Below, piece by piece: positions 1,025 through 35,984 of a DNA stretch of 64,000 nt. Both the position numbers and the translations under genes were made by a program. Position 1 is the first letter of the stretch. Each line of letters starts with the position of its first letter. The notes beneath the pieces were generated by a model. It saw nothing but the letters and a program-made list of their open reading frames with translations, was not told the origin of the DNA and did no database searches. The DNA lies in NCBI GenBank assembly GCA_027366635.1, contig DAHXNE010000043.1:1-64000 (forward strand). The letters run 5' to 3'. Origin of the DNA: Gammaproteobacteria bacterium. GTDB taxonomy: Bacteria; Pseudomonadota; Gammaproteobacteria; Steroidobacterales; Steroidobacteraceae.

Positions 1025-2160
1025 GGCGGCGCTTTGCGGTACGGCACGTGCTGGCGGACCTCGCCGGCATACGTTTCGACCCAATCGGCCTCGTGCTCGA
1101 GGAATTCACCGATCGCGGCGCGGAAGCGCGGATCGACGATGTGGTGCGCCGACCAGGTCAGGCTCGGCTCGAAGCCGCGGCTGATCTTGTGCTCGCCCTG
1201 GGTGCCGGGCTCGAAGCGGGGGATGCCCCGCTCGATGCAAAACTCGATCCCCTGGTGATAACAGGTCTCGAAATGCAGGCTGTGGTACGCGCCTTCGGAT
1301 CCCCAGTAGCGGCCCCAGAGCGTTTCAGCCGACCAGAAGAACACCGCCGCGGCGACCGGCCGGCCCGCGTGCAGCGCGATTTTCACCATCAGGGCGTCGC
1401 CGAGCGTTCGGACGATCTCGGCGAAGAATTCGCGCGTGAGATACGGCTCGTGCCCGTGGCGCAGAAATGTTTCGCGGTGAAAGGCATGGACGCGATCGAG
1501 CAGTGCCGGGTCGAGCTCGGAGCCGAGGTAGGTGCGGAAGCGGATTGCGGCCTCGGCGACGCGCCGGCGCTCGCGGCGCGCCTTCTTGCGCTTCTCGGCC
1601 GTGAAGGTCGCCAGGTACTGCTCGAAGCTCTGGTAGCCGCGGTTGCTCCAGTGAAACTGGCAGTCGCGCCGCAGCAGCCAGCCCGAGCGGACGCAGGCCT
1701 CGCGGTCCGGGTCGTTCAGGAACAGCGCGTGCGCCGAGGAGCAGGCGCGCTCGTGCGCCAGTTCGCGCAGGGCCTCGAGCAACTGCGCGGCGAGCGTGCG
1801 CCGATCCAGGCCGGCGCGCACCAGCAGGCGCGGTCCGGTCGCGGGCGTGAACGGCACCGCCAGGGTGAGTTTGGGGTAGTACTCGAGCCCGTGACGCGCG
1901 TAGGCTTCGGCCCACGCGAAATCGAACACGAATTCGCCGAACGAGTTGTTCTTCAGGAACACCGCGGCGGCGGCGGCGAGCCCATCGGCGTCGCTGAGCG
2001 TGATGGGGCAGGGCTGCCAGCCGCGCGCCTCGCCCACGCAGCGCGTGTGCTCGAGCGCCGCGAGGAACTCATGCCGCATGAACGGATGAGCGTGGCCGAC
2101 GAGCGCATTCCACTGCTGCGGATCGATCTGATCGATGCTCGAGTGGACGGCGAGCTTCAT
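1021..2160 (-). CDS. FemAB-like / GNAT-fold N-acyltransferase (PF04339/COG3146 type)
   Basis: The 379-residue soluble protein is of the type annotated as GNAT family N-acetyltransferase or peptidoglycan biosynthesis/recognition FemAB-like. Typical sequence includes [13 protein letters not shown] near the N-terminus, [27 protein letters not shown]-like core strands, [16 protein letters not shown] (a basic central helix), and a C-terminal GNAT half with [21 protein letters not shown] and [18 protein letters not shown]. There is no signal peptide or membrane segment. The substrate is unknown for the family. It overlaps aat by 4 bases and lies 9 bases after trxB, so trxB, this gene and aat are probably one transcript. 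Family membership is firm; the exact reaction is not. Confidence 0.85.
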
Positions 2161-2169
2161 TCCGGTGCG

Positions 2170-3225
<1,056 letters not shown>

Positions 3226-3256
3226 CTAGAATAAGTTTATCGTTCTGTATCGGATT

Positions 3257-5590
3257 GTGGAGCCGTACCCGTTGGCCGATCCCCAGGCGCTCTCGCGCCC
3301 AACGTCCCGCTTTAGCGCCGCGCTGACCGGCGCTCTGCGCGAGAGCGCGGTCATTGCCGTCGCCGCCGCAGCGCTCGTGGTGCTCATCGCGCTGCTCACC
3401 TACAGCCCCGCGGACCCGGGCTTTTTCTACCGCGGCGCCGACGTGAGCGTGCACAACCGGATCGGTCCGGCGGGCGCCTGGCTTGCCGATGCCCTGTTCG
3501 GTCTGTTCGGCCGCGGTGCCTATTGGGTGCCGTTCATGCTGGGTTTTGGGGCATGGCGCATTCACCGCGGTGCGCACGAGGCGCCGGTCGGGCGGGCCAC
3601 GCGGCTGGTGAGCGGCGGCGGCCTGGCGTTGCTGATGATCGCCACCTGTGCGCTGGCGGCGCTGAACTGGGGCCCAGGCACGCTGCACGAGGGGGCCGGA
3701 GGGTTGCTCGGCCAGTTGGCCGGGGACGGCCTGCGCGGCGAATTGGGCTACCTCGGCGCGACACTCGTGATGCTGGTGGCGTGGATGGCCGGCCTGTCGC
3801 TGGGCTTCGGGGTGTCCTGGTTCCGGGTGATGGATCGGCTCGGGATCGGGGCGTGGGAAATGGTCGGCTGGCTGCGTGCGCGCCGGTCCGCGGCGCACGA
3901 TCGATCGGTCGGGCGCGAGCGCCGTCAGGCGCGCAAGGAAGCGGTGGCGAGCGAGACGCGCCGGGTCGCGGCGCGCGTTCCGCCGCGCATCTCCGTCCCG
4001 ACGCTGAGGGTGGAGCCCAGCGAGCGAGTCGAGAAGGAACGGCAGGGGGCGCTGTTCGATCCGCCCAAGGCCGGCGAGCTGCCGCCGCTGTCGCTGCTCG
4101 ACGATCCGCCGCAGCGCGAGCCGCTGTACTCGAGCGAGGCGCTGGAGGGTCTGTCCCGCCTGGTGGAGGTGAAGCTGAAGGATTTCGGGATCGAGGCCCA
4201 GGTGGTCGCGGTGCAGCCGGGCCCCGTGGTCACCTGCTTCGAGCTCAGGCCCGCCCCGGGCGTCAAGGCGAGCCAGATCACCACTCTGGCGAAGGATCTG
4301 GCGCGCTCGCTGTCGGTGATGAGCGTGCGCGTGGTGGAGGTGATTCCGGGCAAGAACGTGATGGGGCTCGAGATCGCCAATGAGAAGTATGAGACGGTCA
4401 CCCTCGGGGAGATCATTCGCTCGAAGGCCTACGACGAGATGCACTCGCCGCTGGCGCTCGCCCTGGGCAAGGACATCGGCGGCTCGCCGGTGGTTGCCGA
4501 CCTCGCCCGCATGCCCCACCTGTTGATTGCCGGCACGACCGGCTCGGGCAAATCGGTGGCGATCAACGCCATGGTGCTCTCGCTGCTCTACAAGTCGACC
4601 GCCGAGCACGTCCGGCTGATCATGATCGACCCGAAGATGCTGGAGCTCTCCGTGTACGAGGGCATCCCGCACCTGCTCGCGCCGGTGGTCACCGACATGA
4701 AGCAGGCGGCCAACGCCCTGCGCTGGTGTGTCGCGGAGATGGAGCGGCGCTATCAGCTGATGGCCGCGCTCGGGGTGCGCAACATCACCGGCTTCAACCG
4801 CCACGTCAAGGATGCAATCGCGGCCGGCAAGCCGATCCTCGATCCGGTGCTGCTCGCGCGCGCGGCCAACGACCCGACCATGGATCAGAGTCAGATCCCG
4901 CACTTGACGGCGCTGCCGTATCTGGTGGTGGTGATCGACGAGCTCGCCGATCTGATGATGATCGTCGGCAAGAAGGTCGAGGAGCTCATCACTCGCCTGG
5001 CGCAGAAGGCGCGCGCGTCCGGAATCCACTTGGTGCTGGCGACCCAGCGGCCGTCGGTGGATGTCATAACCGGTCTGATCAAGGCCAACATTCCGTGCCG
5101 CATCGCTTTCCAGGTTTCCGCCAAGGTCGACTCGCGCACCATTCTCGATCAGATGGGAGCCGAGACGCTGCTCGGGCACGGCGACATGCTGTATCTGCCC
5201 TCGGGCACCTCGGTGCCGACGCGCGTGCACGGCGCGTTCGTCTCGGACCAGGAAGTGCATCGTGTGGCCGAAGCCTTGAAGAAGATCGCGCCGCCGAGTT
5301 ACAGCGACGAGGTGCTCAGGGGTCCGCAGACGCCGATCCCGGGTCTGGCGGGCGAGGAGGGCGAGGGTGGGATGGCTCCCGATCCGGAGCAGGATGCGCT
5401 CTACGACGAGGCGGTGCGGATCGTGACCACCGAGCGCAAGCCGTCCATCTCGTACGTGCAGCGGCGGCTGAAGATCGGCTATAACCGGGCGGCGCGGCTG
5501 CTCGAGGCGATGGAAGCGTCGGGTCTGGTCGGCCCGCTGCAAGCAAATGGCGCGCGCGAGGTGCTGGTGCCGGCGCGGCCGGAGGACTGA
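3257..5590 (+). CDS. ftsK: DNA translocase FtsK
   Basis: The 777-residue protein is a membrane-anchored DNA pump that acts at the division septum and helps resolve chromosome dimers through XerCD at dif. The N-terminal 180 residues contain about four membrane segments (for example AVIAVAAAALVVLIALLTY and LGATLVMLVAWMAGLSLGF). A charged linker follows, then the motor: Walker A AGTTGSGKSVAINAM near residue 425 and Walker B VVVIDELADLMM near 557. The last 70 residues are the winged-helix gamma domain (DEAVRIVTTERKPSISYVQR) that reads KOPS sequences. The linker is short compared with E. coli FtsK, as in most non-enteric bacteria. GTG at 3257 is the chosen start; upstream frame length is limited by the trxB divergence. 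lolA follows after 6 bases. Confidence 0.97.
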   Translation: MEPYPLADPQALSRPTSRFSAALTGALRESAVIAVAAAALVVLIALLTYSPADPGFFYRGADVSVHNRIGPAGAWLADALFGLFGRGAYWVPFMLGFGAWRIHRGAHEAPVGRATRLVSGGGLALLMIATCALAALNWGPGTLHEGAGGLLGQLAGDGLRGELGYLGATLVMLVAWMAGLSLGFGVSWFRVMDRLGIGAWEMVGWLRARRSAAHDRSVGRERRQARKEAVASETRRVAARVPPRISVPTLRVEPSERVEKERQGALFDPPKAGELPPLSLLDDPPQREPLYSSEALEGLSRLVEVKLKDFGIEAQVVAVQPGPVVTCFELRPAPGVKASQITTLAKDLARSLSVMSVRVVEVIPGKNVMGLEIANEKYETVTLGEIIRSKAYDEMHSPLALALGKDIGGSPVVADLARMPHLLIAGTTGSGKSVAINAMVLSLLYKSTAEHVRLIMIDPKMLELSVYEGIPHLLAPVVTDMKQAANALRWCVAEMERRYQLMAALGVRNITGFNRHVKDAIAAGKPILDPVLLARAANDPTMDQSQIPHLTALPYLVVVIDELADLMMIVGKKVEELITRLAQKARASGIHLVLATQRPSVDVITGLIKANIPCRIAFQVSAKVDSRTILDQMGAETLLGHGDMLYLPSGTSVPTRVHGAFVSDQEVHRVAEALKKIAPPSYSDEVLRGPQTPIPGLAGEEGEGGMAPDPEQDALYDEAVRIVTTERKPSISYVQRRLKIGYNRAARLLEAMEASGLVGPLQANGAREVLVPARPED

Positions 5591-23501: not shown

Positions 23502-24398
23502 TCAGCTCAGCATCTTTTCCACCGGCAATACCAGCAGCGCGCTGGCGCCGGCTTTTTTAAGCCGCTCGAGCGTCTCCCAGAACACGTTCTCGCGGCAGAC
23601 GGCATGCACGGCCACCTTGTCCGGGGAGCCTTCCAGCGGAATGATGGTCGGGGACTCGCTGCCCGGCAGGAGCCTGCGGATCTCCGCGAGCGCGGAGCGC
23701 GGCGCATGCAGCATGATGTACTTGCTCTCACGCACCTGCTGTACGCCGTCCAGGCGCATCACCAGACGTTCCACCCATTCGCCCTTCAGCGGTGCCAACG
23801 CAAGCGGTGTGCGGATCAGCACCGCGTGGCTCTCGAGCACGAGCTGCACCTCGCGCAGGTGATTGGCCTGAAGCGTCGAGCCGGTCGAGACCAGATCGCA
23901 GATCAGATCGGCGCGGCCCAGACGCGGGGCGATCTCGACCGCCCCGGAGAGCGTGACGATCTCGGCGCTGACATTGTGCTCGCGCAGGTACTGCTCGAGC
24001 AGGTAGGGGTAAGTGGTCGCAATGCGCTTGCCCTGCAGGCTGGCAACGCCCTCGTAGCGCTGCTCCTGCGGTACCGCGAGCGCGAGGCGGCAGCGCCCGA
24101 AATCGAGCGTGCGCAGGGCTTGGAAGCGTACCGGATGGCCGCGGGCGGCGAGTTCGAGGCGTTTCTCCTCGAGCACATTCAGTCCCACCAGGCCCAGATC
24201 GCACACGTCCTCCTGAACCAGGTCCGGGATGTCGTCATCGCGCACGAATAGCACATCGAGCGGCATGTTCTCCCCATAGGCCATGAGCTGGTCCTTGCCG
24301 CGGGAGATCTTCAGGCCGCAGCGCGCCAGCACGTCCAGGGAGGGATCTGTCAGCCGGCCGGACTTCTGGATGGCCAACTTCAGGCGCGGCTCATCCAT
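23502..24398 (-). CDS. hisG: ATP phosphoribosyltransferase (long form)
   Basis: The 298-residue enzyme joins ATP and PRPP in the committed step of histidine synthesis. It starts MDEPRLKLAIQKSGRLTDPS at ATG 24398. It has GLVGLNVLEE, IATTYPYLLEQYL and the PRPP loop ADLICDLVSTGSTLQANHL. The C-terminal third (EGSPDKVAVHAVCRENVFWE) is the regulatory ACT-like domain of the long hexameric form, so feedback inhibition by histidine is expected and no HisZ is needed. It overlaps the upstream TrpR-like regulator gene by 8 bases. Confidence 0.97.
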   Translation of the reverse strand: MDEPRLKLAIQKSGRLTDPSLDVLARCGLKISRGKDQLMAYGENMPLDVLFVRDDDIPDLVQEDVCDLGLVGLNVLEEKRLELAARGHPVRFQALRTLDFGRCRLALAVPQEQRYEGVASLQGKRIATTYPYLLEQYLREHNVSAEIVTLSGAVEIAPRLGRADLICDLVSTGSTLQANHLREVQLVLESHAVLIRTPLALAPLKGEWVERLVMRLDGVQQVRESKYIMLHAPRSALAEIRRLLPGSESPTIIPLEGSPDKVAVHAVCRENVFWETLERLKKAGASALLVLPVEKMLS

Positions 24399-24777
24399 GG
24401 CGCGAATCCTCGCGCCGCCGCACCTCGGCCCCGGTGCTCGCGGAGGCGGCCGCCCGGGCAGCGTGCAGGTGCCACTTGCCGAGACGCTGGGCGACCAAAC
24501 CGTAGCCGCCGTTTCCGGCGGCCAGAAAGCGCGCCACGCGTCCGATGGTCGTGACACTGACGCCGGTCAGGGAGTGGATCTCGCGGTAGGGCATGCCGCG
24601 GCTGAGGTAATCGACGACCGACCAGCGGTCGGCCATTGCCTGCAGCTCCGCCGGCGTGCACAGGTCGCGGAAGAAGGCGCGGACCTCCTCGGCATCGCGT
24701 AGCGCCGCGATAGCCGTGTACAGCTTGCGCTCGGCAAGCGCTTCCTGGCGCGGGGTGAGGCTTCGGTGCGTCTTCAT
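24391..24777 (-). CDS. YerC/YecD family TrpR-related regulator heading the his operon
   Basis: The 128-residue protein has the TrpR-like helical fold: EVRAFFRDLCTPAELQAMAD, RWSVVDYLSRGMPYREIHSL and the reading head TGVSVTTIGRVARFLAAGNG-GYG. The final 30 residues are a variable tail overlapping hisG. From memory, this family sits ahead of hisG in Xanthomonadales and some Firmicutes and is predicted to repress histidine synthesis. A TrpR-box-like dyad 12 bases before its start supports autoregulation of the whole operon. It overlaps hisG by 8 bases, consistent with co-transcription. Confidence 0.9.
   Translation of the reverse strand: MKTHRSLTPRQEALAERKLYTAIAALRDAEEVRAFFRDLCTPAELQAMADRWSVVDYLSRGMPYREIHSLTGVSVTTIGRVARFLAAGNGGYGLVAQRLGKWHLHAARAAASASTGAEVRRREDSRHG

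Positions 24778-27569: not shown

Positions 27570-27574
<5 letters not shown>
27519..27574. terminator. Large inverted repeat between convergent metB and leuB
   Basis: GCTGATTCCCGGG (27519-27531) pairs with CCCGGGGAATCAGC (27561-27574) with one bulged G. The palindrome GCCGCATGCGGC (27536-27547) lies inside. It spans the gap between the convergent metB and leuB ends and includes the leuB stop codon. No T-run follows on either strand, so it may act as a Rho-assisted or RNA-end-stabilising element. The terminator role is inferred from position. Confidence 0.5.
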
Positions 27575-28627
<1,053 letters not shown>

Positions 28628-28631
<4 letters not shown>

Positions 28632-29209
28632 GCGGCCGCCATTCGGGCTTCGTAGGCGGCGATCTCGCTCTGGCGTGTGAGCAGGAACCCCAGTTCGTCG
28701 ATGCCGTTCAACAGGCAGTAGCGCGCGAATGGCTCGAGGGCAAAGCGCACGGCCGTGCCGGTCGGCAGCGTGAGTGTGGTGGTCTGCACATCGATGCTGA
28801 TCTGCGCACCGGGATGCTCGAGCAGCCAGTCGTGGGCGTCGGGGGCGACGATGACCGGCAGCAGGCCGTTCTTCAGCGCGTTGTTGCGGAAGATGTCCGC
28901 GATCTGCGTACTCACCACCGCGCGCAGGCCGAAGTCGTGCAGCGCCCACGGGGCATGCTCGCGCGAGGATCCGCAGCCGAAGTTGTGGCCGGCAACCAGG
29001 ATGGTGCAGCCGCGAGCCTCGGGTCGGTTCAGCGGGAACTGCGGCCGCGGTGTGCCGTCGGGCGCGTAGCGCCAGTCCTCGAACAGGTGCGCTCCGAGCC
29101 CCTCGCGCGTGGTGGTGGTGAGGAAGCGCGCCGGGATGATCTGATCAGTGTCGATGTCCCGCGCGGGCAGCACGATGGTGCGCGAGGACAGCTGAGTTAA
29201 GGCTTCCAT
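28628..29209 (-). CDS. leuD: 3-isopropylmalate dehydratase small subunit
   Basis: The 193-residue subunit pairs with LeuC to isomerise 2- to 3-isopropylmalate. It contains [57 protein letters not shown] and [23 protein letters not shown] 29209 shares one base with the leuC stop (TGATG), implying coupled translation; a TTG one codon upstream is also in frame. Confidence 0.97.
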
Positions 29210-30612
29210 CAAAGCAACTCCCTGGGATCGGTTACGCGGCCGCGCACGGCGCTCGCCGCCGCGGTGAGCGGGCTCGCGAGCAGCGTGCGGGCGCCGACGC
29301 CCTGGCGGCCTTCGAAGTTACGATTACTCGTGCTGACCGCATAGTGGCCGCTCGGCACCAGATCGCCGTTCATGCCCAGGCACATCGAGCAACCTGACTC
29401 GCGCCATTCGGCGCCGGCCTCGATGAAGATGCGATCAAGTCCCTCGGCTTCCGCGTCCCGCTTGACCTGTTGCGAACCGGGCACCACCAGCATCTGCACG
29501 CCGGCGGCGATCTTGCGCCCGCGCAGCACCGTCGCGGCGGCCCGCAGGTCCGACAGCCGGCCGTTGGTACAGCTGCCGATGAACACGACGTTCACGGGCT
29601 GCTCGCGAATGGGTTCGCCGGGCGTGAAGCCCATGTACGCCAGTGACTTGGCGAACGCCTGATCATCGCAGCGCTCGGGGATGGTTGCGCCGATCGGCAT
29701 GACCATGCCGGGGTTGGTGCCGTAGGTGACCATCGGTTCGAGTGCCGCGGCGTCGATATCCACTTCCCGATCGAAGCGCGCGTCCGCAGCGCTCGGCAGC
29801 TGGCGCCAACGCTCGAGCGCCGCCTCCCACGCCTCCCCCTGGGGGGCGCGCGGCCGGCCGGCCAGATAGTTGAACGTCGTCTCGTCGGGGGCGATCATGC
29901 CGGCGCGCGCACCGGCCTCGATCGCCATGTTGCAGACCGTCATACGGCCATCCATGTCGAGCGCGCGGATGGTCTCGCCGCGGTACTCGATGACGTGCCC
30001 GGTACCGCCGGCCACGCCGATCTTGCCGATGATGGCGAGGATGAGGTCCTTGGCGCCGACACCCTTGGGAAGCGCGCCGCGTACATTGACGGCCAGTGTG
30101 CGCGGCTTGCGCTGCAACAGACATTGGGTGGCGAACACGTGCCCGACTTCGGTCGTGCCGATGCCGAAGGCGAGTGCCCCGAGCGCGCCATGCGTGCTCG
30201 TGTGGCTGTCGCCGCACACGACGGTCTTGCCGGGCTGGGTCAGGCCGAGCTCCGGTCCGATGATGTGCACGATGCCACGCCGGGCGTCGCGCAGGCCAAG
30301 CAACTCCACACCCATGTCGGCGCAATTGCGTTCCAGTTCGCGCACCTGGCGTGCCGCGGCGTCGAGGGCGATGGGAGCGCCGCCGAAGATCTGCGCGGTT
30401 CGCGTCGGCGTCGAGTGATCCATGGTGGCGAAGGTGCGCTCGGGCCGCCGCAGGCGCAGGCCGCGTTCGCGCAACACGGTGAAGGCCTGCGGGGAGGTCA
30501 CCTCGTGGATCAAGTGCAGATCGATGTAAAGCACCGCGGGCGTATCGGCCGTCTCGGGTACCACTTCGTGGGCACGCCAGAGTTTCTCGAACAGGGTCAG
30601 GGGCGGGCCCAT
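29209..30612 (-). CDS. leuC: 3-isopropylmalate dehydratase large subunit
   Basis: The 467-residue aconitase-family subunit carries the 4Fe-4S cluster on Cys348 (GSCTNGR) and Cys408/Cys411 ([11 protein letters not shown]). Other motifs are [56 protein letters not shown] and [12 protein letters not shown]. It shares one base with the ilvE stop and one with the leuD start. Confidence 0.97.
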
Positions 30613-31571
30613 CAGACCGCCGCCGCGGGTCGCGGCGCCTTCATGTCGATGTGATCGAGCCAGCCCCAGCGATCGGGGGTCGCACCGTTGAACAGTCCGA
30701 AGAAGGCCTTCTGCAGGACCTCCGTCAGCGGACCGCGTTTGCCGGTCCCGACCGTGAGGCGGTCAACGGAGCGGATGGGGGTGATCTCGACGGCGGTGCC
30801 GGTGAAGAACACCTCATCGGCTATATAAAGGAGTTCACGCGGAATGGCGCACTCGCGCACCTCGATGCCCCGCTCGCGGGCAAGACGCATCACCGTGTCG
30901 CGGGTGAGGCCGCCGAGCACGGAGTGTGACAATGCCGGGGTCAGCAGCACCTCGTCCTTGACCACGAACAGGTTCTCGCCGGACCCCTCGCTCACCGTGC
31001 CGTCGGGGGCGAGTCCGATGCCCTCGTGAAAGCCGAGGCGGCGCGCCTCGGCACCGATGAGCTGGCTCGACAGATAGTTGCCGCCGGCCTTGGCGAGCGC
31101 CGGCAGGGTATTGGGTGCGACCCGCTGCCAGGACGAGATGCACACGTCGACGCCCTGCTCCTCGCTCTCGTGCCCCAGGTACTTGCCCCATTCCCAAGCG
31201 GCCACGGCCACCTCGATCGGCGGCTCGGTCTTCGGCGTGACGCCGATCTCGCCGTAGCCGCGGAAGGCGACCGGTCGGATGTAGGCGCCATGCGCCAGCG
31301 CGTTGGCGGCGATGACCTGGCGGCAGGCCGCCTCGATCTGCTCGGCCGAGAACGGCACGCTCATGCGGTAGATCTTCGCCGAGTCGAGCAGTCGCCGGGT
31401 GTGGTCGCGCAGGCGGAAGATCGCCACGCCCTGAGGGGTCTCATACGCGCGCACCCCCTCGAATACGGACGAGCCGTAGTGCAGAGCGTGCGTGAGCACG
31501 TGGACCGTGGCCTTCTCCCACGGAACGAGCTTGCCGTTGAACCAGATGAACTGCGTGGCCGGTATGGGCAT
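30612..31571 (-). CDS. ilvE: Branched-chain amino acid aminotransferase
   Basis: The 319-residue fold-type IV PLP enzyme performs the last step for Leu, Ile and Val. It starts with [20 protein letters not shown] and carries [58 protein letters not shown], the [13 protein letters not shown] turn, [15 protein letters not shown] and the C-terminal [16 protein letters not shown]. It lies inside the leu operon, between leuA and leuC, which joins the last step of all three pathways to leucine synthesis. Confidence 0.96.
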
Positions 31572-31598
31572 AAACGGTCTCCCGGAAGGCGCTGCCTG

Positions 31599-33176
31599 TC
31601 AATGCGTCGAATCCGCGTGCGCGCCCGCGGCGAGCTCCTCGCGCGTGCGGCTGCCGGCGGCCGCCTGCTCGATGCGGTTGATCACCTCGAGGAACGCCTG
31701 GGTGCTCGATTCCACGATGTTGGTGCTCACGCTCGAGCCGCGGTATGTGCGCTGATTGTACTCCACGTACACCAGCGCCTCGCCCTGGGCATCCTCGCCC
31801 TCGGTAACGCCGCGGATCTCGAATTTGCGCAGCATCACACCGATTCCGGTGGCCGCCTCGATCGCCTTGAAGGCCGCATCGACTGGCCCGTCGCCCTCGG
31901 CGGTGTGTTCCACGTTCCGGCCGTCGAGGTGCCGCAGTCGCACGCGGGCACTGGCGGCGCGCTGAGTCACCGCGTGGGTCTCCAGACCCGCCAGACTCCA
32001 AGGTCCGGCCGCCGTACCCTCCGCGCGCAGTACCAGCGCTTCGATGTCGCCATCGAAAAGCTCCTTCTTTTTGTCCGCGAGCGCCTTGAACTGCTCGAAC
32101 ACTTCGTTGAACTCAGCGTCCGGGAGCTCGAAGCCGAGCGCGCGCACCCGCTCGCGCAGGGCATGCCGGCCGCTGTGCTTGCCGAGGATCAGGTGGCTGC
32201 GCGCGAGGCCGACGTCCTCCGGGCGCATGATCTCGTAGGTCGAGTAGTGCTTGAGCACCCCATGCTGGTGAATGCCCGCCTCGTGGGCGAAGGCGTTTTC
32301 CCCGACCACCGCCTTGTTGCGCGGCACGGGCATGGCGGTGATGCTCGAGACCAGCCGCGAGGTCGGGTACAGCCGGGTTGTTTGGATCCCGGTGGTGACA
32401 TTGAAGAACGCCCCGCGGGTCTTCAGCGCCATCACCACCTCCTCGAGCGAGCAGTTGCCGGCCCGTTCGCCGATCCCGTTGATGGTGCACTCGATCTGGC
32501 GGGCTCCGGCCACCACGGCGGTCAGGCTGTTCGCCACCGCCATGCCCAGGTCGTCGTGGCAGTGCACCGACAGGCGCACCCGCTCGATGCCGCGGACGTT
32601 CTTGCGCAGATAGCGGAACAGCTCGGCGAATTCATCCGGGACGGTATAACCGACGGTGTCCGGGATGTTGACGGTGCTTGCGCCGGCCTCGATGGCCGCT
32701 TCCACGACTTGCGCGAGAAACGGCAGCTCCGTGCGCGAGGCGTCCTCGGGAGAAAACTCCACGTCCTCGCACAGCTCACGTGCCTGGCGCACGCCCGCGA
32801 CGGCCGCGCGCAGGATCTGCTCTTCGGCCATGTTGAGCTTGTATTGGCGGTGGATGGCGCTGGTGGCGAGAAATACGTGCACGCGGCGTCGCGGGGCGTC
32901 CGCGAGCGCGCGCGCGGCGAGCTCGATGTCGTCGCGATTGCAGCGCGCGAGCGCCGCAATCACCGGACCGTGCACCTCGCGCGAGACCGCCTGCACGCTT
33001 TCCCAATCGCCCTTGGAGGCGGCCGGGAAGCCCGCTTCGATGACATCCACGCCGAGCTCGGCGAGCGCCCGCGCCACGCGCAGCTTTTCCGGCCGCGTCA
33101 TGCTGCAGCCCGGGGCCTGCTCCCCGTCGCGCAGCGTGGTATCGAAGATCAGGACCTTGTCGGGTTCGGCTGTCAT
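31599..33176 (-). CDS. leuA: 2-isopropylmalate synthase
   Basis: The 525-residue enzyme condenses 2-ketoisovalerate and acetyl-CoA, the first step to leucine. The N-terminal TIM barrel has IFDTTLRDGEQAPGCSMT, VIEAGFPAAS, VNIPDTVGYTVPDEF, SVHCHDDLGMAVANSLTAV, the metal and acetyl-CoA site INGIGERAGNCSLEEVVMAL, and HEAGIHQHGVLKHYSTYEIM. The last 120 residues form the regulatory domain where leucine binds to inhibit. It lies 24 bases after ilvC with a GGAG-type site. Confidence 0.97.
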   Translation of the reverse strand: MTAEPDKVLIFDTTLRDGEQAPGCSMTRPEKLRVARALAELGVDVIEAGFPAASKGDWESVQAVSREVHGPVIAALARCNRDDIELAARALADAPRRRVHVFLATSAIHRQYKLNMAEEQILRAAVAGVRQARELCEDVEFSPEDASRTELPFLAQVVEAAIEAGASTVNIPDTVGYTVPDEFAELFRYLRKNVRGIERVRLSVHCHDDLGMAVANSLTAVVAGARQIECTINGIGERAGNCSLEEVVMALKTRGAFFNVTTGIQTTRLYPTSRLVSSITAMPVPRNKAVVGENAFAHEAGIHQHGVLKHYSTYEIMRPEDVGLARSHLILGKHSGRHALRERVRALGFELPDAEFNEVFEQFKALADKKKELFDGDIEALVLRAEGTAAGPWSLAGLETHAVTQRAASARVRLRHLDGRNVEHTAEGDGPVDAAFKAIEAATGIGVMLRKFEIRGVTEGEDAQGEALVYVEYNQRTYRGSSVSTNIVESSTQAFLEVINRIEQAAAGSRTREELAAGAHADSTH

Positions 33177-33200: not shown

Positions 33201-34196
<996 letters not shown>

Positions 34197-34272
34197 CTCG
34201 ATATCTCCAAATCGGCCCATTGGCCCGGATGTCACGTCACAGTCACGGCACGACAGCGCATGCCGTGACACG

Positions 34273-34314
34273 CATAAAAAACCCCGCAGCGGCCATGCGG
34301 GCCGGTGCGGGGTT
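34273..34314 (-). terminator. Attenuator terminator ahead of ilvC
   Basis: On the minus strand AACCCCGCA (34314-34306) pairs with TGCGGGGTT (34288-34280) and is followed at once by TTTTTTA (34281-34274), a textbook intrinsic terminator. It lies about 75 bases before the ilvC start and after a leader peptide rich in Leu, Ile and Val codons. Its 5' arm plus flank (34301-34313) is also perfectly complementary, over 13 bases, to 34365-34377 within the leader coding region, giving a competing antiterminator. Confidence 0.93.
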
Positions 34315-34348
34315 CTTGGTGTCTTTTCTCGCTCCTACCTGAGAGTCC

Positions 34349-34468
34349 TCAGGCGGCCACGGGCACCCCGCACCGGCTGCTCACAAGGAGCAGCAGTCCG
34401 ATAAGAAGCACCGGCAACCGGCCGCGACGCGCGCCCGGCGCGCGCTGCGCCAAGTGGAGTCGGGTCAT
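34349..34468 (-). CDS. ilv-leu operon leader (attenuator) peptide, 39 residues
   Basis: ATG 34468 opens a 39-codon frame that ends TGA at 34349. Residues 20-29 read VLLIGLLLLV: seven branched-chain residues among Leu codons CTT, CTT, CTG, CTG, CTC, CTT plus one Ile (ATC), with Val at both ends. A Cys/Arg stretch and VPVAA follow. The last codons overlap the antiterminator arm at 34365-34377. Ribosome stalling at the Leu/Ile/Val codons when charged tRNAs are scarce should leave that arm free to block the terminator at 34273-34314. The ribosome binding site is weak; GTG 34411 within the frame is an alternative start. Confidence 0.88.
   Translation of the reverse strand: MTRLHLAQRAPGARRGRLPVLLIGLLLLVSSRCGVPVAA
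34365..34377 (-). promoter_or_regulatory. Antiterminator arm in the ilv-leu leader
   Basis: ACCCCGCACCGGC on the plus strand is the exact reverse complement of 34301-34313, the 5' side of the attenuator terminator. Pairing of the two in the RNA would preclude the terminator. Because this arm is inside the 3' end of the leader peptide frame, a ribosome reaching the stop codon would mask it and allow termination. Confidence 0.85.
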
Positions 34469-34534
34469 GTCTGCTGCGGGTGCCACGGGCCTTCGTGCCT
34501 GGGTGAGAGTCAAAATGTGGAGATGATGGGACGG

Positions 34535-34564
34535 ATGTCAGCACAAGCGGCGCGATGTTGTCAA
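34535..34564 (-). promoter_or_regulatory. Candidate promoter for the ilv-leu leader
   Basis: A perfect -35 TTGACA (34564-34559) is followed after 18 bases by a weak -10, TGACAT (34540-34535). It would start transcription near 34528, about 60 bases before the leader peptide start. It is the best promoter-like sequence between the leader and the divergent aminopeptidase gene. Confidence 0.5.
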
Positions 34565-34580
34565 TTGGCGCGCAGGCGCT

Positions 34581-35984
34581 ATGCTCGGGACCGTGGCACA
34601 TGAAACGCTATTGAGCGCAGATCCCGGCGAGAGCCGGCCGCTGTGGCTGCTCGCCGAGCGGGAACTGGAGGCTTGGCTGGCCGGACAGAGCGCCGCGGTG
34701 GTCGATTGGGTTCGCGCCCACGGCTATCGCGCCGAGCGGCATCGCGTGCTGACGCTGCCCGGGGAGTCGGGCGTGGCGGGCGCGCTGCTCGGCCTCGGGG
34801 CGCTCGACTCGGCGGAGGATCTCGGTCCGTGGGAGGCCGCCGGGGCCCCGGAGCGCCTACCAGCGCTGCCGTGGCGGCTGGCGAGGCCGCTCGGAGCGCA
34901 TGCGGCGACCCAGTTCGTGCTCGGGTGGCTTCTCGGCGGATACCGGATGACACGCTACCGCGGCGGTGAGCGGTTCGAGCTGCCTGCGGCCTTGATCGCT
35001 CCGCCGCAGGCGGACTTGCGTTATGCGCAGGCCGCGGCGCGGGCCAGCGCGCTGGCCCGCGATCTGATCAACACGCCGGCCAATGACCTTGGGCCCGCGG
35101 AGCTGGCCGCAGCGGCCTTGGCGCTCGCGCGCGAGCACGGGGCTCGCGGCCAGGTGCTCGAGGGCGCAGATCTCGCCGGCTTCCCGCTGCTGCGGGCCGT
35201 TGGTGCCGGGAGCGCGCGCGCGCCGCGGATGATCGATTTGCGCTGGGGGCGTCCGGACGCGCCGCGCGTCACTCTGGTCGGCAAAGGCGTCTGTTTCGAT
35301 ACCGGTGGACTCGACCTGAAGTCCGCCTCGGCGATGCTGCTGATGAAGAAGGACATGGGCGGGGCCGCCTGTGCGCTCGCGCTCGCCGATCTGCTGATGC
35401 GGCTCGAAGCGCAAGTGCACTTGCGTGTATTGATACCGGCGGTCGAGAACAGTGTGGGAGCCTGTGCGTACCGTCCCGGTGATGTGCTGCGCTCGCGCAA
35501 GGGGCTTACGGTGGAGGTGGGTAACACCGATGCCGAGGGCCGACTGGTGCTGGCCGATGCGCTCAGCGCGGCGGACGAGGAGCGCCCGGCGCTGCTGATC
35601 GATCTGGCGACCCTCACGGGCGCGGCGCGCACCGCGCTCGGACCGGAGGTGCCGGCGGTGTACGCCCGGCCCGCGCACTGGGCGCAGCGGGCGCGCGAGA
35701 TCGGGGAGGTGGAGGCCGATCCGCTCTGGCCAATGCCGTTGTGGACAGGCTACGAGGAGGATCTGGCGAGCCGGATTGCCGATCTTGGCAATGTGGCATC
35801 GACGCCATTCGCCGGCTCGATCATCGCGGCGCTGTTTCTGCAGAGGTTTGTCGCCGCCACGACCGACTGGCTGCACATTGACATGTATGCGTGGAACGCT
35901 AAGGATAGACCGGGCCGTCCGCTGGGCGCGGAGGCACAGTGCATAAGGACGTTGTATCGCTTGCTGCGCGAGCGTTTCGGCTGA
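34581..35984 (+). CDS. Leucyl aminopeptidase family protein (M17, PepB-like)
   Basis: The 467-residue dizinc exopeptidase removes N-terminal residues from peptides. The catalytic C-terminal half is intact: VGKGVCFDTGGLDLKSASAM, LMKKDMGGAACALALADLL, IPAVENSVGACAYRPGDVLR, NTDAEGRLVLADALSAA, LIDLATLTGAARTALG and WLHIDMYAWNAKDRPGRPLG. The N-terminal 150 residues differ from PepA and lack its DNA-binding features, so it is the short PepB-like branch. It is divergent from the ilv-leu leader, placing an aminopeptidase beside branched-chain amino-acid genes; I infer no shared regulation. Confidence 0.92.
   Translation: MLGTVAHETLLSADPGESRPLWLLAERELEAWLAGQSAAVVDWVRAHGYRAERHRVLTLPGESGVAGALLGLGALDSAEDLGPWEAAGAPERLPALPWRLARPLGAHAATQFVLGWLLGGYRMTRYRGGERFELPAALIAPPQADLRYAQAAARASALARDLINTPANDLGPAELAAAALALAREHGARGQVLEGADLAGFPLLRAVGAGSARAPRMIDLRWGRPDAPRVTLVGKGVCFDTGGLDLKSASAMLLMKKDMGGAACALALADLLMRLEAQVHLRVLIPAVENSVGACAYRPGDVLRSRKGLTVEVGNTDAEGRLVLADALSAADEERPALLIDLATLTGAARTALGPEVPAVYARPAHWAQRAREIGEVEADPLWPMPLWTGYEEDLASRIADLGNVASTPFAGSIIAALFLQRFVAATTDWLHIDMYAWNAKDRPGRPLGAEAQCIRTLYRLLRERFG

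Follow-up and report, generated by a model that had tools for sequence, protein, structure and literature searches.

What controls expression of the gene run ilvC-leuA-ilvE-leuCDB in a Steroidobacteraceae genome is the question raised by the short leader ahead of it. The leader lies on the minus strand of the window, by which is meant the whole stretch of 64,000 nucleotides analysed (GCA_027366635.1, contig DAHXNE010000043.1, positions 1 to 64,000). A preliminary description had proposed that the operon is regulated by ribosome-mediated attenuation, and the position of the leader, its reading frame, its mutually exclusive helices, the arithmetic of the ribosome footprint and the conservation of the design all fit this proposal. 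As judged from sequence, the leader is a classical four-segment ribosome-mediated transcription attenuator with a probability of about 0.93.

The six genes, ilvC-leuA-ilvE-leuC-leuD-leuB, run in one direction on the minus strand, and each scores above a curated NCBIfam cut-off. By family match they are branched-chain genes, so that the operon makes the amino acid that its leader is predicted to sense.

33201 to 34196, minus strand: ilvC, first gene of the putatively controlled operon (NF004017 and TIGR00465 above cut-off)
27570 to 33176, minus strand: leuA, ilvE, leuC, leuD and leuB (NCBIfam matches above cut-off)

The nearest upstream frame (34581-35984, plus strand) finds its best matches among leucyl aminopeptidases, below the cut-offs of those families. 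Because this frame is divergent, a minus-strand terminator ahead of ilvC belongs to the 5' leader of the ilvC transcript and is not the end of an upstream one. ilvD is a separate plus-strand gene beyond the aminopeptidase-like frame. The genome of the window, which is 86.6% complete, holds one leuA and one ilvB above cut-off, the latter on another contig, and the 600 bases before this ilvB carry no attenuator leader of such a design. Moreover, the exact arm pattern described below occurs in this genome at the ilvC leader only. The earlier suggestion of one control for the leucine branch together with ilvC and ilvE fits these observations: since ilvB has no such leader and ilvD is a separate gene, both would fall outside the switch. 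Gene order varies among relatives. In 104 unique loci the sequence past ilvC extends for more than 5.5 kb; of these, the six-gene order of the window occurs in 20 and the order ilvC-leuA-leuC-leuD-leuB, without ilvE, in 39. The others lack leuA and keep ilvE (11), lack both (10), have ilvC alone (17) or are otherwise arranged (7).

Read 5' to 3', the minus strand from 34650 to 34150 presents a TTGACA, a short frame and a GC-rich hairpin followed by six T. These elements, and those derived from them, are as follows.

34559 to 34564, minus strand: TTGACA, the -35 element of a likely promoter, found in all 20 aligned leaders (that of the window and those of 19 relatives)
34535 to 34543, minus strand: probable extended -10 (TGC-TGACAT), 18 bases past the -35 and a weak match to consensus
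34349 to 34486, minus strand: predicted leader frame, with probable start GTG 34486 (45 codons) and alternative start ATG 34468 (39 codons)
34382 to 34411, minus strand: control codons V20-V29 in the 39-codon count (GTG CTT CTT ATC GGA CTG CTG CTC CTT GTG)
34353 to 34425, minus strand: segments 1 and 2 (control region and arm) as a predicted protector hairpin, folding at -39.8 kcal/mol
34365 to 34377, minus strand: segment 2, the candidate antiterminator arm, within the leader frame and an exact 13-base complement of segment 3
34301 to 34313, minus strand: segment 3, forming the terminator's 5' side and pairing with segment 2 (exact reverse complement of 34377-34365)
34276 to 34315, minus strand: predicted intrinsic terminator (segments 3 and 4) with a T-run at 34281-34276, read by sequence, folded and also found in the pattern scan

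The final AT of the extended -10 is kept in all 20 leaders and its TG in nearly all. From this predicted element, transcription would start near 34528. The pattern scan lists no minus-strand promoter at the TTGACA site, and the -10 departs from consensus.

The short frame reported earlier, 34468-34349 from ATG to TGA, is present with its 39 codons (MTRLHLAQRAPGARRGRLPVLLIGLLLLVSSRCGVPVAA) and includes VLLIGLLLLV. What changes is its beginning. The leader probably starts at GTG 34486 and has 45 codons, because all 20 aligned leaders have this GTG in frame and 14 of the 20 have the ATG at 34468. No Shine-Dalgarno sequence was seen at the usual distance before either start codon, nor before many of the 35 relatives' leaders inspected. 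Around the probable start lies a block conserved in the 20 aligned leaders (34489-34474, minus strand), which reads (C)CCGTGG(T/C)ACCCGCAG and varies slightly. It may contain the start codon or form pairs with either the control region or the arm. The control codons are dominated by leucine: the control regions of 88 leaders, that of the window included, contain 560 Leu, 134 Val and 39 Ile codons.

Attenuation would turn on two elements, the arm and the terminator. The 13-base complementarity between 34365-34377 and 34301-34313 was recomputed and holds exactly, and the terminator with its U-run is strong, the hairpin 34316-34276 folding alone at -28.7 kcal/mol. Segment 3 is common to the antiterminator (2:3) and the terminator (3:4), so that the two helices are mutually exclusive. 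Could such an arrangement arise from a chance leucine-rich frame lying ahead of a constitutive or decaying terminator? Several related genera do have a terminator and no qualifying arm and frame, which is what this explanation would lead one to expect. However, when 34486-34325 was shuffled 5000 times with dinucleotides preserved, one shuffle attained 13 contiguous Watson-Crick pairs with the terminator arm, none attained nine Leu/Ile/Val in ten codons, and none combined the two. The design is, moreover, kept in 34 of 37 genomes of the genus, that of the window included. Chance is therefore the least credible of the explanations weighed here. The leader as a whole (34265-34480) has a folding energy 3.75 sd lower than the average of 200 shuffles.

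The attenuator reading makes definite demands on the position of the ribosome, and these were followed by folding. The leading edge of the ribosome was assumed to lie 12 bases beyond the A-site codon's first position, and for stalled states only RNA downstream of the ribosome was folded. With stalls at V20, L21, L22, I23, L25, L26 and L27, the RNA made before segment 4 contains the full 13-pair 2:3 helix. A ribosome stalled at L28 masks three bases of the arm and one at V29 masks six; V29 should therefore not be an inducing codon in this model. The preliminary description had taken the Leu/Ile/Val codons as sensors, and this stands for the seven stalls tested from V20 to L27, each of which leaves the arm free, and not for V29. 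In folds without a ribosome the terminator is present and segment 1 occupies the arm, also when the fold begins at 34487. When it begins at 34530 or 34500, the arm is instead largely taken up, in its 3' part, by the start block, and the terminator forms here too. For a ribosome at the stop codon, the fold covered the RNA ahead of it and gave the terminator; by arithmetic with the assumed footprint, a ribosome in this position covers the arm in part only.

The energies add a constraint on how the switch would work. The isolated helices 2:3 and 3:4 are nearly equal, at -28.8 and -28.7 kcal/mol, and the order of their formation can therefore decide the outcome. Once segment 4 is present, equilibrium folds favour the terminator in eight of the nine stalled states examined, all but L27, so that the switch would have to be kinetic.

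On this basis the following course of events is proposed. Polymerase would start near 34528 and transcribe the leader, with a ribosome translating the short frame behind it. If charged Leu-tRNA is ample, the ribosome would pass the arm and reach the stop codon (34351-34349), the 3:4 terminator would form and transcription would end near 34276. On a leader without a ribosome, upstream RNA would sequester the arm, and termination would likewise be expected. If charged Leu-tRNA is short (or Val- or Ile-tRNA, at V20 and I23), the ribosome would stall at codons 20-27, holding segment 1 and leaving the arm free. The free arm would then pair with segment 3 ahead of the synthesis of segment 4, and polymerase would read through into ilvC-leuA-ilvE-leuCDB. 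Translation of the frame, stalling and the response to amino acid starvation are all predictions of this scheme.

The same terminator might also be toggled by a metabolite or protein bound to the leader, as in a riboswitch. In favour of such a mechanism, the conserved 5' block at about 34489-34474 can pair with the control region or, in longer folds, with the 3' part of the arm. However, Rfam 15 gives no match at the leader at gathering score; the search of 34150-34700 returned four weak matches, none near its gathering score and none cis-regulatory. The helix between the block and the control region is also no stronger by energy than in shuffles, whereas a translating ribosome accounts for both the Leu codons and the spacing of the arm. 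Control by a bound ligand is thus extremely improbable. At gathering score the whole window contains SAM and tRNA matches only, both elsewhere. The SAM riboswitch (RF00162, 24923-25055, plus strand, 63.8 bits) precedes genes for a MetX-type homoserine O-succinyltransferase and a cystathionine gamma-synthase. Nearby, a YerC/YecD family, TrpR-related gene (24391-24777, minus strand; TIGR02531, 67.2 bits) stands just ahead of a frame at 23502-24557 that by eye reads like hisG. The YerC/YecD family gene is a possible local regulator of histidine genes.

The pairing of the start block with the control region was considered as an additional helix, 0:1. Of its cells 96.1% are paired, two pairs are changed on both sides, and its covariation score was reached by 1 of 500 shuffles. 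Its duplex energy is no better than that of shuffles, with a mean z of 0.05 in the 20 close leaders (0 of 20 beating all 40 shuffles) and of -0.25 in 68 other leaders (3 of 68 beating all 40), and it is kept as a lead only. A spacer hairpin after the leader stop codon was found unsupported, with 83.3% of cells pairing and no two-sided change.

Conservation of the helices of the attenuator itself was followed in the alignment of 20 distinct leaders, consisting of the window and 19 relatives. Helix 2:3 pairs in 97.3% of cells (38.5-43.8% when slid), helix 3:4 in 95.0% (32-57% when slid) and helix 1:2 in 87.1% (31-55% when slid). Covariation is nil for 2:3 and 3:4 in these leaders because both hardly vary, and that of 1:2 does not exceed its shuffles. 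In a wider set, relatives with different arms still pair, at 11 of 13 positions in L019, 11 of 13 in L132 and 10 of 13 in L086; the set also contains loci whose best partner pairs poorly.

Sequence conservation of the frame invites another explanation, namely that it encodes a small functional hydrophobic membrane peptide and that the terminator merely sets a fixed basal level of expression. VLLIGLLLL resembles a membrane segment and is near invariant in close relatives. The peptide ahead of the Leu run is far more variable, however, and other genera keep the Leu/Val richness and the arm-coding tail while the rest changes. Furthermore, the arm is kept as RNA complementary to the terminator, and a membrane peptide leaves 13 exact bases unexplained. 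This is the foremost of the alternatives and is nevertheless very unlikely.

The spread of the attenuator was assessed with fixed criteria: a terminator of -15 kcal/mol or lower, seven or more contiguous complementary positions (G-U counted as a pair), and six of ten Leu/Ile/Val codons just upstream. All three were found in 34 of the 37 genus genomes, counting that of the window, and in 89 of 157 genomes of the family, compared with 19 of 1440 shuffles; the terminator, taken by itself, was found in 144 of the 157. Outside the 157 stand L113, with 108 bases upstream, and genomes without an ilvC match or without a fetched gene start. These pass counts vary with the thresholds, a first detector having given 55 of 193 unique upstream regions and the later one the 89 of 157 genomes. 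The complementary run averages 8.48 (6.54 in shuffles) across 160 terminator-bearing loci, and the best Leu/Ile/Val count per ten codons averages 6.43 (4.27 in shuffles). The preliminary description had named relatives lacking the design as evidence against attenuation. Outside the genus this applies in part, in that some genera of the family are without the design. The three genus genomes that fall short of the criteria are L041 (arm mismatch), L052 and L183 (divergent IlvC). Within the family 68 of 157 genomes fall short of them, and eight genera have no passing genome: g24 (0 of 12), g34 (0 of 4), g31 (0 of 3), g20 and g35 (0 of 2 each), and g23, g25 and g42 (0 of 1 each). In the g24 clade (e.g. 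L094-L096, L119, L124, L125), where no locus passes, leuA is often not beside ilvC; it does not adjoin ilvC at eight g24 loci (L091, L094-L096, L112, L120, L124 and L125).

Beyond the family, the order search found IlvC in 113 of 117 genomes, not all of which were fetched, and in our own count 13 of 31 distinct loci scanned outside the family carry a frame with at least six of ten Leu/Ile/Val together with a terminator-like hairpin. The class search found IlvC in 114 of 143 genomes; judged by eye, one of 28 fetched loci outside the family (L273-L300), namely L273, has the combination, and a number of the remaining loci have a flagged frame resembling the end of IlvH. At L214, an IlvH-like frame (by eye) is divergent from ilvB and not downstream of it (3287-4003, plus strand, and 1435-3282, minus strand). 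As for IlvC itself, a similar protein is that of L006, a Steroidobacteraceae MAG (84.6%), and the closest come from unplaced proteobacterial and gammaproteobacterial MAGs. On these similarities the source is probably an uncultured member of the Gammaproteobacteria close to Steroidobacterales.

The choice among synonymous codons in the control region matters according to the theory of selective charging, as far as it is set out in PMC1183508. Control regions of 45 non-redundant relatives were compared with ilvC, with the N-terminal part of the leader and with the other frames. In control regions 34 of 67 Val codons are GTA. The N-terminal part of the leaders has 3 of 40, ilvC has 44 of 1157, and the two alternative frames of the control stretch have 0 of 18. 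This in-frame preference is seen in relatives such as L001-L005, L033 and L036, and it is a family-level pattern, since the control region of the window itself has GTG. CTT accounts for 70 of 285 Leu codons in control regions and 39 of 1495 in ilvC. Its enrichment is not specific to the control region, as the N-terminal leader part has 13 of 64. GGA is enriched in control regions and likewise in the other frames (17 of 48 and 19 of 68), and part of the codon pattern may therefore have a structural cause. Among 30 tRNA loci scanned (of 31 matches) in the incomplete genome of the window, tRNA-Val(CAC) and tRNA-Leu(GAG) are present and tRNA-Val(UAC) was not seen. A tentative and rather doubtful extension is that the rare GTA codons of the family, and less specifically the rare Leu codon CTT, sense the charging of tRNA-Val(UAC) and tRNA-Leu(GAG), not leucine or valine generally, and that the start of the leader may supply a fifth segment competing for the control region or for the arm. 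The relatives, with their clades lacking the leader and their in-frame GTA preference, make the selective-charging theory testable by comparison (PMC1183508, in the part concerned with that theory).

The leader described here is an ordinary, well-built attenuator of an already known type, conserved in many relatives. In E. coli, the leaders of ilvGMEDA and ilvBN are named ilvL and ivbL, and the Rfam family for leu leaders is named Leu_leader. The latter is absent from the matches to the whole window and to 34150-34700. A survey by Vitreschak et al. in 2004 reportedly covers Xanthomonas ilvC operons. The main text of a paper on the Xanthomonas ilvCGM-leuA operon is without words beginning attenuat or leader (PMC12575087), and no report on the leader in the group of relatives was found among the literature matches listed. 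Attenuation by leader peptides rich in branched-chain amino acids is established in E. coli for ilvGMEDA, ilvBN and leuABCD, as outlined in PMC6123439. According to the same summary, predictions for a range of Gram-negative species place putative leader peptides and terminators before branched-chain genes (Vitreschak et al. 2004, FEMS Microbiol Lett 234:357, as summarised in PMC6123439), and the present leader resembles these in having a putative leader peptide and a terminator ahead of branched-chain genes. It is like the ilvGMEDA and ilvBN attenuators in its Leu/Val/Ile-rich peptide, its alternative antiterminator and terminator and its predicted control of branched-chain synthesis, and like the leuABCD (leuL) attenuator of E. 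coli and Salmonella in placing Leu codons in the leader of leucine genes (PMC6123439, in outline). The E. coli leuABCD leader encodes a 28-aa peptide with 4 Leu in that account (PMC6123439), whereas the leader of the window has more Leu codons and is joined with ilvC and ilvE. One leader here precedes ilvC, leuA, ilvE and leuCDB, whereas in E. coli these are described as separate units (PMC6123439), the leaders having been compared through Rfam only. The known attenuators gain a leader for which Rfam has no matching family and which occurs in several families of a single order, with the prediction that ilvC, leuA, ilvE and leuCDB stand under one switch in the source organism.
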